From NCBI GenBank assembly GCA_013696395.1, contig JACCYQ010000038.1, positions 1-56,100 on the forward strand: DNA of 56,100 nucleotides. The letters run 5' to 3'. The stretch is from Chitinophagaceae bacterium (lineage in GTDB: Bacteria > Bacteroidota > Bacteroidia > Chitinophagales > Chitinophagaceae). This document shows positions 17,924 through 31,194 of the stretch, one piece after another. A model generated the notes under the pieces. That model was not told the DNA's origin and ran no database searches. It saw nothing but the letters and a program-made list of their open reading frames with translations. The number at the start of each line of letters is the position of its first letter. Position 1 is the first letter of the stretch. A program made the translations under genes and the position numbers.

Positions 17924-19276
17924 ATGATGTATTTTTTAGCAATCAACTGGACCGTATTCGCAAATAACCTTGGACAATTTATACTTGCTTTCTCCATTTT
18001 AGTCGTATTACACGAATTAGGTCACTTTCTACCCGCTAAATGGTTTGGCTGCAGAGTAGAAAAATTCTATCTCTTTTTCAATCCGGGATTTTCTTTATTT
18101 AAAAAGAAAGTGGGTGAAACTGAATATGGTATTGGATGGATTCCACTAGGGGGGTATGTTAAAATCTCCGGAATGGTAGATGAGAGCATGGATAAGGAAC
18201 AAATGAAGTTACCCCCTCAACCCTGGGAATTCCGCAGTAAGCCAGCCTGGCAAAGACTGATCATTATGCTGGGGGGTGTAATTGTAAATTTTATACTGGC
18301 CCTGATCATTTTTGCAGGGATCCTTTTTGTTTGGGGTGAAGAAAAATTACCTGCTAAGAACATGGTATATGGTTTAGCGGCTGATTCGTTAGCCACAACA
18401 GTAGGTATACAGGATGGCGATGTGGTTAAAGCGGTTAACAATGAGCCATTGGTTTATCTGAATACCCTGCCCAAAAGCCTGATGCTGACAGAAAAAGTAA
18501 CGCTGAATATTAATCGTCAAGGGCGGGACACTGTCATAACATTACCGCAAGGAACCATTTCAAAATTGACCAAAAACCAACGCAGCAATTTTCTTTCACC
18601 GCGTGTTCCCGTAATTGTTGATAGTGTTGGGGAATCAGCTAAAATACTGGAAGGCGATTTGAAAAAAGGAGATCAGTTAGTTGGTATTAACGGTCAGAAC
18701 TTTATGTTTTATGATGAGTTTGATGAAGTGAAAAAAAATTACAAAGGACAAGATGTGCAGTTATCCCTTATACGGAATAACGACACGGTGAGTTCACGGG
18801 TTAGTATAGACGAAAATGGTTTGGTTGGATTTATTCCGCGCAGCCCTGCCACTATTTTGGGTACTGAAAAAATTGAATATACATTCTTGGAAAGCATTCC
18901 TGCTGGTGCCAAATATGGCGTAGACCGGTTAAAGGATTATATGGAAGGTATTCGTTTGCTATTTGTTTCAGATGAACATAAAGTGCAGGATAACCTGGGT
19001 AGCGTTGTTAGTATTGGAAAATTATTTGGCGGCTATTGGGATTGGCATCGTTTCTGGACCATGACCGCTCTATTCTCTATCATCCTTGCATTTATGAATA
19101 TTTTACCAATCCCCGCATTGGATGGTGGCCATGCACTGTTTACTTTATATGAAATGATCACCGGTCGTAAACCCAGCGATAAATTTATGGAGTATGCACA
19201 AATGGTGGGAATGGTATTGTTGTTAGGATTAATGGCATATGCGTTGGGACTGGATATATGGAGGCTGTTTAAATAA
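17924..19276 (+). CDS. rseP: RIP site-2 metalloprotease RseP
   Basis: RseP cuts substrates, classically anti-sigma factors, inside the inner membrane. The 450-residue protein has the zinc motif HELGH at 30-34 in the first span and a beta-hairpin region with GWIPLGGYVKISGM. Two PDZ regions follow at about 140-210 and 215-290, then the C-terminal spans with NILPIPALDGGH carrying the third zinc ligand. Two adjacent ATGs (17924 and 17927) could both serve. It follows dxr after 115 bp. Regulated proteolysis could act on systems such as the sigma/barrel pair at 20.8-22.6 kb, but nothing here proves that. Confidence 0.95.
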   Translation: MMYFLAINWTVFANNLGQFILAFSILVVLHELGHFLPAKWFGCRVEKFYLFFNPGFSLFKKKVGETEYGIGWIPLGGYVKISGMVDESMDKEQMKLPPQPWEFRSKPAWQRLIIMLGGVIVNFILALIIFAGILFVWGEEKLPAKNMVYGLAADSLATTVGIQDGDVVKAVNNEPLVYLNTLPKSLMLTEKVTLNINRQGRDTVITLPQGTISKLTKNQRSNFLSPRVPVIVDSVGESAKILEGDLKKGDQLVGINGQNFMFYDEFDEVKKNYKGQDVQLSLIRNNDTVSSRVSIDENGLVGFIPRSPATILGTEKIEYTFLESIPAGAKYGVDRLKDYMEGIRLLFVSDEHKVQDNLGSVVSIGKLFGGYWDWHRFWTMTALFSIILAFMNILPIPALDGGHALFTLYEMITGRKPSDKFMEYAQMVGMVLLLGLMAYALGLDIWRLFK

Positions 19277-20834: not shown

Positions 20835-21407
20835 TTGGAAAGTTTAGACAAAATCATAGCAGGTTGTATTAATAAAGACGCCAGGTTTCAGCGATTATTT
20901 TATGATCGGTTCCGTGGTTATGCTACCAAGGTGGTTTTCCGGTACGTTTACAGGTATGATAAGTCGGTGGATGTGGTGACGGATGGGTTTATAAAGGTGT
21001 TTAATCATTTTAGCCATTTTGATAAAGTTGATGGAGAAAACCTGGAGAAAATGGTGATGGGCTGGGTAAAAAAAATTATGATCAATACGGCTATTGATGA
21101 ATTGCGCAAAGGTAACATGCTTCCTGAAATAGGTGGAATACCGGATTATGTCTGGGATTATAGTGATAAAAATTACAACTCCGACCAATTGGTGCTGTAT
21201 AAAGACCTGATCAGTTTTATCAAAGAATTGCCACCTAATTATCGAACGGTTTTTAATCTGTATGTTTTAGATGGTTATAGTCACAGCCAGATTGCCGACA
21301 TGCTTCTTATTTCAGTCAGTACATCAAGATCAAGCCTGTCGAGGGCAAAAGCACTTTTGCAAAACAAGATAAAAAATATGGAGGAGGGAATATTATGCAG
21401 GATATGA
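20835..21407 (+). CDS. ECF-type RNA polymerase sigma factor
   Basis: This 190-residue sigma-70-family protein has region 2 at about 10-95 (FYDRFRGYATKVVFRYV, DVVTDGFIKVF, MINTAIDELRK) and region 4 at about 125-185 (LPPNYRTVFNLYVLDGYSHSQIADML). It starts with TTG: a stop lies three codons upstream and the next ATG would remove region 2. It overlaps the next gene by 13 bp, so sigma and the membrane protein are made together. ECF sigma factors of this type control cell-envelope genes. The target promoters cannot be told here. Confidence 0.88.
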   Translation: MESLDKIIAGCINKDARFQRLFYDRFRGYATKVVFRYVYRYDKSVDVVTDGFIKVFNHFSHFDKVDGENLEKMVMGWVKKIMINTAIDELRKGNMLPEIGGIPDYVWDYSDKNYNSDQLVLYKDLISFIKELPPNYRTVFNLYVLDGYSHSQIADMLLISVSTSRSSLSRAKALLQNKIKNMEEGILCRI

Positions 21408-22579
21408 GCCCTGATATGGAAGAATTACTGCGTAAGGCATCAGAAAATTATCCACTGAAGCAAACAGAGGACAGATGGGATAAAATTGCTTCAGAAATAA
21501 TTCAGGATACCGCGCCTGATTCCGGTTTTCAAAAAACTTACTGGTATAAAAAGCAATTGATATTATCCGCAGTATTACTTCTTTTATTCTTAATTCTTGG
21601 GGACACCTTTTCAGGGTTGAATGATTCATCGCAAAAATTCAATAATGAAACCAAGATATTTTTACCCGTTCATACCAAAGAAAAAGTGGATAATGATAAA
21701 ATTTTATTGAAGCCGGAAAGAATAAATAAAAATTATACGGTTTCATTTATAAATCCAAAGCCTGTTAAAAGCAGCGATTCCCGGATATTATACGAAAATG
21801 ATTTTTTGGTAAAACCACTGAACCCTACATCACCAGGCATTAATCGGAACAAAGACGATAGCCATACAAGCTTGGTTCACTTTGAACAACCATTATGGGA
21901 TATCCGTGATTTGAATGAAAATATTTTTCCCTTCAATCTGAAAATAAAAACGGCTGATAAAAAAGAAACGAATTTAACCGCACGAAAAGGTTTTTATTTT
22001 GGTTTATTAGCAGGCCCAGAATTAAATACGGTAAAGAGCCAGGGAGTAAAAAAAATTGGTTTGAATGCTGGGGTTTTAGCGGGTTATCGGTTCAATAAAT
22101 CAATTTCTTTAGAAACCGGTTTATCATTATCCAGAAAATTTTATTCTACCTCCGGCGAGCACTTCAGCATGAAAGAAATTGGCCCGGCAATGCCTTCCGC
22201 CATGAAAGTGATGGAGGTTGATGGGAACACTCAAATAGTAGAAATTCCAGTTCACTTCCGGTATGAGATTTTTCAAAATAAAAAACGAAGCATTTATTCT
22301 TTAGCAGGATTTTCATCGCTGATAGTAGATCAGGAAACTAATCAGTATCATACTCTGCTGAACGGCACTGAAGAAATGGTGTATGGCATATATAAAAATA
22401 ACCGGGCATATTTTGCTTCCTCCATAAATCTTGCTATTGGTTATGAACAAAAACTTGGCACTAAAAACTTAATCCGCATTCAACCTTATATACAATTGCC
22501 CGTAAAAGGAGTGGGTGTCGGAGACCTGCAAGTGATGAACTCCGGCTTGCAGGTAGGCATTACGAGACGGGCATATTAA
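21395..22579 (+). CDS. Membrane-anchored protein with outer-membrane-type beta-barrel domain
   Basis: The 394-residue protein begins with a cytoplasmic-looking helical stretch (MEELLRKASENYPLKQTEDRWDKI, about 8-31), of the kind seen at the start of anti-sigma proteins. One span follows at about 53-70 and a disordered linker at about 75-190. The C-terminal part (about 195-394) looks like a PorT/OMP_b-brl barrel (GFYFGLLAGPELNTVK, ISLETGLSLSRKFYST). A strong GGAGGAGGG lies eight bases before ATG 21395. Its gene overlaps the sigma gene. A role as the cognate anti-sigma factor that senses the envelope is likely but inferred. Confidence 0.78.
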   Translation: MQDMSPDMEELLRKASENYPLKQTEDRWDKIASEIIQDTAPDSGFQKTYWYKKQLILSAVLLLLFLILGDTFSGLNDSSQKFNNETKIFLPVHTKEKVDNDKILLKPERINKNYTVSFINPKPVKSSDSRILYENDFLVKPLNPTSPGINRNKDDSHTSLVHFEQPLWDIRDLNENIFPFNLKIKTADKKETNLTARKGFYFGLLAGPELNTVKSQGVKKIGLNAGVLAGYRFNKSISLETGLSLSRKFYSTSGEHFSMKEIGPAMPSAMKVMEVDGNTQIVEIPVHFRYEIFQNKKRSIYSLAGFSSLIVDQETNQYHTLLNGTEEMVYGIYKNNRAYFASSINLAIGYEQKLGTKNLIRIQPYIQLPVKGVGVGDLQVMNSGLQVGITRRAY

Positions 22580-22687: not shown

Positions 22688-23851
22688 ATGAAACAGAGAC
22701 ATCAATTTTTGACACTGGCGGCAATCAGTGCCTGCTTATTTTATTCTTGCCAAAAAGACATGAAAGATTCAGCAATGGATAATGCCGTTTCAGGAAAGTC
22801 GGCCAACAGCAAAGCTGCAAAAGAAAAAACCAGTGTTGGGTTTGTATACACTTTAAGTAACGAGGTAAGCGGCAACAGGGTTTTAGCGTATAGCCGGTCT
22901 GTTGCAGGAACATTAACCTGGATGGACGGTTACGCCACTGGTGGTACTGGAACAGGTGGCGGTTTAGGAAACCAGGGCGCCGTGACATTAACGAATGATC
23001 ATAAGGTTTTGCTGGCAGTGAACCCGGGCAGTAATTCTGTGTCTTCTTTTCTTACATCAAATAATGGATTGCAACATGTTTCTGTCGTAGCCTCCGGTGG
23101 AATGACTCCAGTCAGTGTAACAGTGCATAGGGATCTTGTTTATGTGTTGAATGCTGGCGGAACGGGTAATATATCAGGTTTCAGGTTATATGCGGATGGA
23201 AGTTTGCATCCCATTGCAGGTTCTACCAGGCCATTAAGTACTTCATCCGCAGGTGCCGCACAAGTGTCATTTGTACAAGATGGAAGGGTAGTTGCGGTAA
23301 CAGAAAAAGCAACCAATAAAATCATCACTTATACTATTGGCATGGATGGTATACCTGGAATGATGCACGCTATTGAATCAGCCAATGCTACTCCTTTCGG
23401 TTTTGCAGTAAGCAATGGTGGATTTATTTATGTTTCGGAAGCTGCAGGCGGCGCTCCCGGTGCCAGTACGGTATCTTCTTATTATATATCAATGAATGGA
23501 ATGATCAGCCTGGTGGATGGTCCTGAATCTGCCGGACAAACCGCGGCCTGTTGGGTGGTATTGACAAACAATGGAAAATATGTTTATGCAACCAATACCG
23601 GAAGTAATACGCTTACATCTTTTAACGCAGACCAACATGGAGAGCTGGATATTTTAGCCGCTGCAACAGCAGGAATGAATGTACTCTCACCCATAGACGC
23701 TGCATTGACCAATAATTCTAAATTTATTTACGTACTTAATGCTGGCAACGAAAGCATCACTGCATTATCTGTCAGCAATGATGGAAGCATGGATTATATC
23801 CAAAACATTCCCGGACTTCCGAATGGGGCAACCGGACTTGCAGCCAAATAA
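22688..23851 (+). CDS. Lactonase-type seven-bladed beta-propeller lipoprotein
   Basis: This 387-residue protein has a lipoprotein signal peptide with lipobox LFYSC (Cys 21). The mature part has repeated propeller blades with the pattern VYVLNAGGTGNISGFRLYADGSL, KYVYATNTGSNTLTSFN and FIYVLNAGNESITALSVSNDGS. This is the 6-phosphogluconolactonase/YncE-like fold. No catalytic role is proven for the lipoprotein members. It starts 108 bp after the beta-barrel gene; a small CGGCT/AGCCG hairpin lies between. It may belong to the regulon of the upstream sigma factor. Confidence 0.8.
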   Translation: MKQRHQFLTLAAISACLFYSCQKDMKDSAMDNAVSGKSANSKAAKEKTSVGFVYTLSNEVSGNRVLAYSRSVAGTLTWMDGYATGGTGTGGGLGNQGAVTLTNDHKVLLAVNPGSNSVSSFLTSNNGLQHVSVVASGGMTPVSVTVHRDLVYVLNAGGTGNISGFRLYADGSLHPIAGSTRPLSTSSAGAAQVSFVQDGRVVAVTEKATNKIITYTIGMDGIPGMMHAIESANATPFGFAVSNGGFIYVSEAAGGAPGASTVSSYYISMNGMISLVDGPESAGQTAACWVVLTNNGKYVYATNTGSNTLTSFNADQHGELDILAAATAGMNVLSPIDAALTNNSKFIYVLNAGNESITALSVSNDGSMDYIQNIPGLPNGATGLAAK

Positions 23852-24120: not shown

Positions 24121-24308
24121 ATGATTGACAATTCAGCATTAGAAAAAACCCTGTGGAGTGCTGACTTCAAACTTCGCAACGGAAGATGGCCTTGCATTTG
24201 AAGATAATATGCAGCAACTTACGGCAACATTAAAAGAGCCGGTGCAGAGGTTTCAAATCTGCATGAAGTAATAAAAATTAATCTAAAAAAGTCGGTTACT
24301 CAATATGA
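24121..24308 (+). pseudogene. hsdM: Relic of type I restriction methyltransferase hsdM (both ends, core deleted)
   Basis: The first 20 codons read like the HsdM N-terminus (ALEKTLWSADFKLRN; compare LEKTLWxAADKLR). The next frame at 24182-24238 reads EDGLAFEDNMQQLTATLKE, and the frame from 24241 reads GAEVSNLHEVIKINLKK; together these look like the HsdM C-terminus. One more base in the A-run at 24286-24290 would give VGYSI then TGA at 24306-24308. So about 450-500 codons, including the methylase motifs, are gone and at least two frameshifts are present. That restored TGA overlaps the ATG of the next gene, the coupling expected in an hsdM-HEPN-MNT operon. The assignment is from recalled family motifs; the 270 bp before it hold no gene I can see. 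Confidence 0.75.
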
Positions 24309-24703
24309 ACAATCAAGACGTCAGATGGAAGCAACGCTTCCGGAATTTCGAAAAAGCGGTTCTTCACCTGAAGGAAGCAGTTGAGAAAAAAAATCTTTCC
24401 GATTTAGAAAAAGCAGGTACGATACAGATTTATGAATTCACTTTTGAATTGGCCTGGAAAACGGTAAAAGATTACCTGGAGGAAAGAGCCGTAGAAGTAA
24501 AATTTCCAAGAGATGCGATTAAACAAGGTTTTTTGTACCAGGTAATTAAAGATGGAGATGTTTGGATGGATATGCTCCAGAAGAGAAATTTAATGAGTCA
24601 CACGTATAATGAAAAAAATGCGGAACTGGCCTACAACCTGATAGTGAATGAATATTTTGGTGAATTATTTGACGTATATCAAACACTAAATAAAGAAGTA
24701 TGA
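24305..24703 (+). CDS. hepT: HEPN-domain toxin-like protein (HI0074/HepT family)
   Basis: The 132-residue all-helical protein belongs to the nucleotidyltransferase substrate-binding, HI0074-type HEPN family. The catalytic R-x4-H-x-Y motif is intact as R94-NLMS-H99-T-Y101, the pattern of HepT RNases. The middle has the family phrase YEFTFELAWKTVKDYLEE. The gene overlaps the MNT gene by four bases (ATGA) and overlapped the old hsdM stop upstream. In HepT-MntA systems the nucleotidyltransferase silences the toxin by AMPylating the Tyr of this motif. Whether this pair does so is inferred from the motifs. Confidence 0.88.
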   Translation: MNNQDVRWKQRFRNFEKAVLHLKEAVEKKNLSDLEKAGTIQIYEFTFELAWKTVKDYLEERAVEVKFPRDAIKQGFLYQVIKDGDVWMDMLQKRNLMSHTYNEKNAELAYNLIVNEYFGELFDVYQTLNKEV

Positions 24704-25062
24704 ACCCATTTGGTATTTCAAATAAGAGCTATCAGTTAATTCTTTCAACATTGGGTAAATATTCCGAAGTGGAAGAAGTGATTATTTTTGGAAGCAGGGC
24801 AAAAGGAAATTACAAACAAGGAAGTGACATAGATTTGGCAATTAAAGGCAAGGATTGCAATGAACGGTTTGCAATGAAAATAAGTGCTTTGTTGAATGAG
24901 GAGTTGCCAATACCCTATCATTTGGATATACTCTGTTACGATACATTGAATAACAAAGAATTAAAAGAGCATATAGACCGGGTGGGGAAAATATTTTTTC
25001 AGGCTAATCAGCAGCATGTATTGATGGAACCTCATGTTGATTTTAAAATAAAATCAAAATAA
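24700..25062 (+). CDS. mntA: Minimal nucleotidyltransferase antitoxin-like protein (MntA/HI0073 family)
   Basis: The 120-residue protein is a minimal nucleotidyltransferase. It carries the GS-x10-DxD signature: GS at 31-32 and DID at 43-45, within IIFGSRAKG ... GSDIDLAI. A third carboxylate is likely in LDILCYD. It starts in the stop of hepT (ATGA), so the two proteins are made in a fixed ratio. Its expected job is to modify and neutralise the HEPN partner. The C-terminus carries a short Lys-rich tail made of repeated AAAATC units that may be a small expansion. The 144 bp to the next gene hold only a 27-codon open frame of no evident meaning. Confidence 0.88.
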   Translation: MNPFGISNKSYQLILSTLGKYSEVEEVIIFGSRAKGNYKQGSDIDLAIKGKDCNERFAMKISALLNEELPIPYHLDILCYDTLNNKELKEHIDRVGKIFFQANQQHVLMEPHVDFKIKSK

Positions 25063-30643: not shown

Positions 30644-31194
30644 CTATTGCTTAAACCAGTTTAACTCCAAACAATTCCTTAAATGGATTTTTGCCCTGTG
30701 AATGATTTGCCAGAAGTTAGATTTAGTGATTTCAAGTTGTGTGCAAATTCCATCTGCATCATATTCTTCAAGGTATTTCATTTGCACTGCTGATGACCAT
30801 TTTTCAGGCAACTTTTGAAACAGTCTTTAAGAGCTTTTGTAAAATCAGGATCCAGCAATTCTTTTTCATTGCCCCAGTCTTTTGGGCGGCATTCCGGCTT
30901 CCACCTTTGGTTTTCATCAAAAAGCTGCTCTATGGTTCCAGAAGATATTTCTGTACCGGTCTTGTATTTTGAACGGTAGCAGTCGGCAATCTTATGGTTT
31001 AAAATCGAAATCAGCCAGGTTTTCACATTGCTTTTACCCTGGTATTTGTGATGGAATTGATAAGCAGCAAGAAACGTCTCCTGCACTAAATCTTCTGCAA
31101 CTTGCCTCTGTCGCACTTTAGCAAGAGTGTAAATAAATAAGTCTTTGGTATTGGTTTTAACTCAAATAATAATATCGTCTTTAGCAGTCGTCAA
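30644..31194 (-). pseudogene. Frameshifted ECF sigma-factor gene
   Basis: The open piece 31116-30778 contains a good region 2 (VAEDLVQETFLAAYQFHHKY, VKTWLISILNHKIADCYRSK). Upstream in the same frame comes VKTNTKDLFIYTLAKV, preceded by TGA at 31164-31162 where related proteins have Trp, and then LTTAKDDIII back to a TTG at 31194. Downstream, the A-run at 30813-30816 (minus-strand AAAA) lacks one base. In the corrected frame region 4 follows (LPEKWSSAVQMKYLEEYDAD, TKSNFWQIIHRAKIHLRNCL) to TAG at 30646-30644. One nonsense and one frameshift thus disrupt the gene. Confidence 0.78.

Follow-up and report, generated by a model that had tools for sequence, protein, structure and literature searches.

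A Chitinophagaceae gene pair encoding an ECF sigma factor and a probable trans-envelope anti-sigma factor of the Reo/Dma kind

The closest described systems are EcfO-Reo of Bacteroides fragilis and Phocaeicola vulgatus, and Dma1-Das1 and Dma2-Das2 of Bacteroides thetaiotaomicron. The Reo protein of P. vulgatus is predicted to cross the periplasm and to end in an outer-membrane barrel (PMC9308784). It has been described elsewhere that Reo crosses all five compartments, from the cytoplasm to the cell surface (PMC13114119). Strains of P. vulgatus with an active sigma factor and no working anti-sigma factor show a protective response, and treatment with the toxin BcpT results in a 33-fold increase of the sigma gene in this species (PMC9308784). 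It has been proposed that EcfO is released from Reo (PMC13114119, PMC9308784). The Dma2 protein is composed of an N-terminal anti-sigma domain, a span, a disordered tether and a barrel, and the phenotypes that follow the loss of Dma1 or Dma2 require Das1 or Das2 (PMC13088901). In both Phocaeicola and Bacteroides, the loss of a Reo/Dma-type protein activates the sigma regulon.

The window analysed here, a whole stretch of 56,100 nucleotides from the genome assembly of a Chitinophagaceae bacterium, contains a gene pair of this design (Table 1). The product of the second gene is very probably an anti-sigma factor of the Reo/Dma kind that crosses the envelope and would regulate the sigma factor encoded upstream. 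As in the EcfO-Reo system, the gene of an ECF sigma factor is followed by that of a long anti-sigma factor with a span and a barrel. The EcfO-Reo regulon includes NigD lipoproteins, and in the window the pair is followed by a lactonase-type gene whose start is lipoprotein-like. As in the Dma1-Das1 and Dma2-Das2 systems, an anti-sigma-type segment, a span, a tether and a barrel are joined in one protein beside an adjacent sigma factor. Dma3 is fused to its own sigma factor, whereas the window protein is not. The Dma systems have a role in vesiculation. Both systems are likened to the window pair by their descriptions and not by sequence, and EcfO-Reo belongs to another family of Bacteroidota than the window. 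The architecture is not new, being the kind known as Reo/EcfO and Dma/Das, and the window protein is a fresh, divergent member of it. The original prediction had called such arrangements poorly studied; this was fair when said, but is partly dated now. Reo/EcfO and Dma/Das appeared in print from 2022 to 2026. Its central proposal, one chain that crosses the envelope and signals to the sigma factor, appears to be supported, and it agrees with the published descriptions of Reo, Dma1 and Dma2.

Other routes from the envelope to a sigma factor are built differently. In the RseA/sigma-E system of E. coli, a single-span anti-sigma factor, which has a periplasmic domain and no outer-membrane barrel, is released by envelope stress. 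The single span is common to RseA and the window protein, whereas the outer-membrane-type barrel is found in the latter only. In the FecA-FecR-FecI system, the outer-membrane signal reaches the ECF sigma factor via a separate TonB-dependent receptor, whereas in the window protein the barrel is part of the same chain as the putative anti-sigma segment. No TonB-dependent receptor gene is found among the nearest ORFs on either side of the pair in the ORF lists; receptor-like ORFs occur in the window only far off, near positions 1785 and 53071.

Table 1. Features of the sigma/barrel locus and neighbouring genes, in window positions
Feature	Position	Strand	Basis or remark
M50 site-2 protease (RseP-like) gene	17924-19276	+	Peptidase_M50, E 1.2e-55
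ECF sigma factor gene	20835-21407	+	190 aa, TTG start; cognate partner by position
Probable Dma/Reo-type anti-sigma factor gene	21395-22579	+	ORF, Pfam, AlphaFold2 model, gene pairing
Putative cytoplasmic anti-sigma-like N-terminal segment, aa 1-40	21395-21514	+	Modelled helices 6-18 and 26-37; Trp28
Single inner-membrane span, about aa 54-72	21554-21610	+	Hydropathy peak 2.36; helix 47-72
Linker/tether, about aa 73-198	21611-21988	+	pLDDT below 50 at 73-193
Eight-stranded outer-membrane-type barrel, aa 199-393	21989-22573	+	Pfam, AlphaFold2, structure alignment
Codon of Thr279	22229-22231	+	Cys in most members
Codon of Val311	22325-22327	+	Met in most members
Lactonase-type beta-propeller gene, lipoprotein-like start	22688-23851	+	Pfam Lactonase, 1.3e-17; 108 nt after barrel gene

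The sigma ORF is matched by the Pfam families Sigma70_r4_2 (E 9e-15) and Sigma70_r2 (E 9e-6), and it scores below the cut-offs of the NCBIfam models TIGR02985 (56 bits, cut-off 126) and NF058625 (50 bits, cut-off 130). Its overlap with the barrel ORF, which had been noted at the outset, is borne out and measures 13 nt, with both ORFs on the same strand and regions 2 and 4 of the sigma factor recognized. The TGA stop codon of the sigma gene shares the sequence ATGA (21404-21407) with the ATG at 21404 of the barrel gene. Because of this overlap, ATG 21404 (391 aa) is the likelier start of the barrel protein than position 21395 (394 aa). The residue numbers of the window protein are counted from 21395, the 394-aa form.

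The structure of the protein was modelled with AlphaFold2 from 12 sequences, the window protein and 11 named relatives, resulting in a mean pLDDT of 62.5 and a pTM of 0.48. Two short helices of low to middling model confidence form the N-terminus, which has no Pfam match, and are followed by a long hydrophobic helix. It is the N-terminal segment, residues 1-40, that would bind the sigma factor. The barrel is matched by Pfam OMP_b-brl_2 (E 3e-8, aa 198-350). Its eight modelled strands lie at residues 199-213, 221-232, 237-253, 271-294, 298-322, 339-354, 358-371 and 380-393, with an extra short strand (325-333) within a loop, and the pLDDT is mostly 80-93 in the strands and lower in the loops. 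The sizes given in the original prediction (about 50 N-terminal, 120 linker and 200 barrel residues) fit this model.

On the strength of the modelled fold, the barrel is predicted to be located in the outer membrane. Alignment with VIA-align places it at Z 17-19 to the barrels of OmpA, OprF, NspA and OmpW, and Foldseek groups it with these too. All of the top-scoring structures are barrels of the outer membrane or designed transmembrane barrels. A soluble domain had been named as one outcome that would overturn the proposal, and the model shows an outer-membrane barrel instead. A C-terminal domain that stays in the periplasm or is associated with the inner membrane is highly improbable: the soluble barrels of PsbO align to it as well, but at Z 9.5-11.6, and a clear hydrophobic/polar alternation is seen in six of the eight strands. 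Moreover, a barrel of eight strands has both ends on the same side, which suits a periplasmic linker. A sequence search of solved structures returned no match at E 1 or better.

Known from work on gut Bacteroides and Phocaeicola, the design is also common among Chitinophagaceae, and it extends to further families of the class. A search with the single protein gave matches in 23 of 59 genomes, whereas a profile at E 1e-3 gave matches in 269 of 294 sampled Chitinophagaceae genomes, the bacterium's own genome being included in both counts. By hand count, about 151 of the 294 contain strong matches (E 1e-40 or better), and the 118 further genomes with a match contain weak, mostly partial ones. In a class-wide sample, matches were found in 190 of 247 genomes, again with the own genome included, and strong matches beyond Chitinophagaceae in 11 genomes only (hand count). 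A search of a plasmid collection yielded only one weak barrel match, in Bernardetia. The 11 named relative loci, from a separate collection, come from Chitinophaga, Filimonas, Pinibacter, Terrimonas, a Flavihumibacter MAG and other MAGs.

The two genes are coupled in nearly all of these loci. A sigma gene is located immediately upstream in 150 of the 152 barrel ORFs that reach the C-terminal part of the profile, duplicates included, which amounts to 128 unique pairs. The two ORFs without it are L171 and L030, the latter a contig-end fragment. Outside Chitinophagaceae, the sigma gene is likewise present at all 26 loci taken from the class (L187-L212), 21 of which extend to the barrel end of the profile. 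The span starts 116-191 nt past the sigma stop codon in 127 of the 128 unique pairs (median 137), with one exception at 450 nt, and this distance is independent of the choice of start codon. As the offset is so constant, the coupling is not due to chance. The gap between the sigma gene and its partner is within 30 nt in either direction in all 128 pairs, and the genes overlap in 93, when the start is chosen with a preference for the ATG closest to the stop codon of the sigma gene.

Further analyses used a set of 127 members, comprising the 128 unique pairs minus one with a span offset of 154 and including the window. Trp28 is retained in 124 of these. Lysine and arginine are more frequent before the span than after it in 116 of the 128 pairs, equal in 8 and fewer in 4, in keeping with the positive-inside rule. 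No fusion of sigma and anti-sigma factor of the Dma3 type was flagged among 30 loci (L184-L212 and L171). L171 itself encodes a full-length barrel protein of the family, and no sigma gene was found in the approximately 0.9 kb upstream of it. In L199, L200, L203 and L205, and in L032 of the own genome, at least two copies of the Trp-containing segment are seen by eye before the span, and these are possibly tandem anti-sigma domains.

The start region of the sigma gene was placeable in 123 of the 128 unique pairs, and in 103 of these the gene starts with TTG and has no ATG nearby. The partner gene begins with ATG in 127 of 128, ATG being preferred wherever available. By reading, 5 of the 14 other readable ECF genes in the own genome also have no ATG start, so this property is not unique to sigma genes of the window type.

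In the proposed mechanism, the cytoplasmic N-terminus would bind and hold the ECF sigma factor encoded directly upstream. The single span would serve as the inner-membrane anchor of the chain, the flexible linker of about 125 residues would bridge the periplasm, and the C-terminal barrel would be seated in the outer membrane. A barrel that is disturbed or fails to assemble would cause the tether to be altered or cut. This would allow the cytoplasmic part to release the sigma factor for transcription of its targets, probably its own operon too, in which case the sigma factor would be autoregulated. The trans-envelope model is carried by the architecture, the gene coupling, the conservation and the predicted barrel fold observed here. 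Inhibition of the sigma factor and a response to envelope damage would apply by analogy with the published relatives. DCA over 127 pairs (Meff 109) gave no clear coevolution excess of sigma with the N-terminus over sigma with the barrel: residue pairs with z above 4 numbered 44 of 10640 for the N-terminal segment and 155 of 39900 for the barrel, which served as the control.

The release step may be proteolytic and could involve RseP. The M50/RseP-like gene in the window is a possible processing enzyme of the barrel protein. Reading by eye of the genes listed upstream in the 11 named relatives revealed no such gene, and RseP adjoining the sigma/barrel pair was dropped as a conserved feature for this reason. 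The presence of an RseP-like gene within the window, together with a linker that varies in length, is modelled with very low confidence and would tolerate a cut, also bears on a second reading. Here, the barrel would be cut off after export and reside alone in the outer membrane, while the anchored N-terminus acts as the regulator without a continuous tether. This is quite unlikely, since no linker among the 127 members falls below about 123 aa and the members examined retain both parts in one chain; a constitutive cut would require neither. Linker length was taken as protein length minus 197 minus the span end, a crude measure by which the window protein is the shortest. When extended, the linker should always be long enough to cross the periplasm, as the continuous trans-envelope chain would need. 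Conservation in the outer half of the barrel exceeds that in the periplasmic half weakly (permutation p 0.06), and loops 1-3 are variable. A passive tether with conservation in the periplasmic half is not supported, since the difference runs weakly the opposite way.

Within the barrel, two positions stand out. Position 279 is Cys in 120 of the 127 members and position 311 is Met in 118, whereas the window protein has Thr279 and Val311. Both residues are present in 118 members, Cys alone in 2, Met alone in none and neither in 7 (Fisher 4e-10), the window protein being one of the seven. In 116 of the 120 Cys-bearing members, Cys279 is the sole Cys of the last 200 residues. Of 21 full-length members found outside Chitinophagaceae, 11 (from five families) have both residues, 10 have neither (one is gapped at 279) and none is mixed. 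Judging by the strand ends and the alternation, the two positions would lie on neighbouring strands and face the lumen, and the pair ranks 54 of 21321 in DCA. The seven Cys-less members share a mutual identity of at most 0.30, and they are not each other's nearest relatives, since the three nearest rows of each carry Cys.

This pattern counts in favour of a rival reading, in which ligand sensing is the trigger. The outer mouth of the barrel would be the binding site of a metal or small molecule, whose binding, rather than damage, would free the sigma factor; Cys-Met members would use Cys279 and Met311 with Glu283 and Glu314, and the window protein would sense something else. Such a mechanism is conceivable, if somewhat doubtful. 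The pair is absent from the window protein itself, and the variable loops and weak outer-half excess described above do not favour a conserved outer site. Another conserved pair, 250-374, co-deviates slightly more (phi 0.89, against 0.87 for 279-311, which ranks 2 of 325). The seven Cys-less members are divergent overall and deviate at other conserved positions too, e.g., at 209 in five of the seven. On the tree, there are only 6 changes of Cys279 and 8 of Met311, with 3 independent pairs on supported branches and 6 when all branches are counted. For the 3 supported pairs, Met follows Cys in 2.9 (sign test p 0.25), while the controls follow in 0 to 1.6 of 3 among the control positions listed, of 13.

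Ligand sensing is also favoured by an association with downstream genes for haem-type lipoproteins. In the 11 named loci, the pair is followed by genes for an OB-fold protein, a CxxCH lipoprotein, YceI and DUF5777, according to the gene lists and to Pfam on the Filimonas copy; motifs pick these up in 9, 11, 9 and 11 of the loci, respectively. The window has the lactonase-type gene where these relatives have the OB-fold/cytochrome/YceI/DUF5777 series. From its position, the lactonase-type gene is a candidate target or accessory of the sigma pair. A lipoprotein as the regular next gene was dropped as a rule: among the 51 pairs whose downstream stretch was of sufficient length, the next same-strand ORF has a lipobox-like start in 15 and none in 21, and no ORF lies within 450 nt in the other 15.

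At least one of the four downstream genes is found in 53 of 114 Cys-Met members and in none of the 7 Cys-less members (p 0.018), and a cytochrome c gene in 47 of 114 and none of 7 (p 0.042). Eight of the 114 are named loci that were used to build the operon profiles; without them, the counts become 45 of 106 for any of the genes (p 0.041) and 39 of 106 for the cytochrome (p 0.094), which speaks against the ligand-sensing reading. The association is weak; its statistics ignore relatedness and are based on seven Cys-less members. The stretches searched downstream were about 1.4-4 kb, mostly 3 kb, and 4 of the 127 pairs with less than 1.4 kb were dropped. Two Cys-only rows, one with the operon, were left out of both tests, and 14 of 165 first downstream matches sit on the opposite strand.

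The Cys-Met pattern, though strong in its counts, is weakened by the pair 250-374, by the tree counts and by an operon association that depends on seven members. It is unlikely that the Cys-Met subfamily carries a soft-metal, haem or redox site near the outer mouth, making it a receptor that reads a ligand at the cell surface and that precedes all or part of the OB-fold/cytochrome/YceI/DUF5777 operon in about half of its members, with the window protein as a ligand-blind or re-purposed variant. If the site were real, the window protein would be a natural variant without both site and operon. The Cys-Met pair, together with the operon linked to it and the seven members that lack both residues, offers a concrete candidate for what the barrel senses, and the pair and its operon may be the new part of these observations. 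Among the papers listed, all available without subscription, none treats, going by its listing, a Cys/Met site in Dma-type barrels, in Chitinophaga or otherwise, and no such paper containing the word DUF5777 was found. The methods are the only place in PMC13088901 where cysteine and methionine are mentioned.

The trans-envelope protein of the window is one of two such barrels paired with a sigma gene in the own genome, whose assembly is 83.65% complete; the other pair is C105, and the one DUF5777 match of the genome adjoins it. At two more loci, C88 and C17, a sigma gene is followed by a protein that the profile matches in its N-terminal part, with a sub-threshold Pfam barrel match for C17 and none for C88. 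At L072 and L073, also of this genome, a sigma gene precedes a span protein whose N-terminus is related and whose C-terminus has diverged. In both cases the gene that comes next has, by eye, a start like that of a lipoprotein, and one of these genes is a sub-threshold LVIVD-repeat match.

Elsewhere in the window, an ECF sigma-like gene on the reverse strand (30680-31116) is seemingly split over two frames. Its ORF at 30778-31116 is region 2-like by eye, and a Sigma70_r4_2 match (30680-30826) is found in a 60-aa frame. Downstream of the lactonase-type gene, at 24305-25062 on the forward strand, lies a pair of genes with NTase_sub_bind and Polbeta/NTP_transf_2 matches, resembling the HEPN-MNT toxin-antitoxin pairs.
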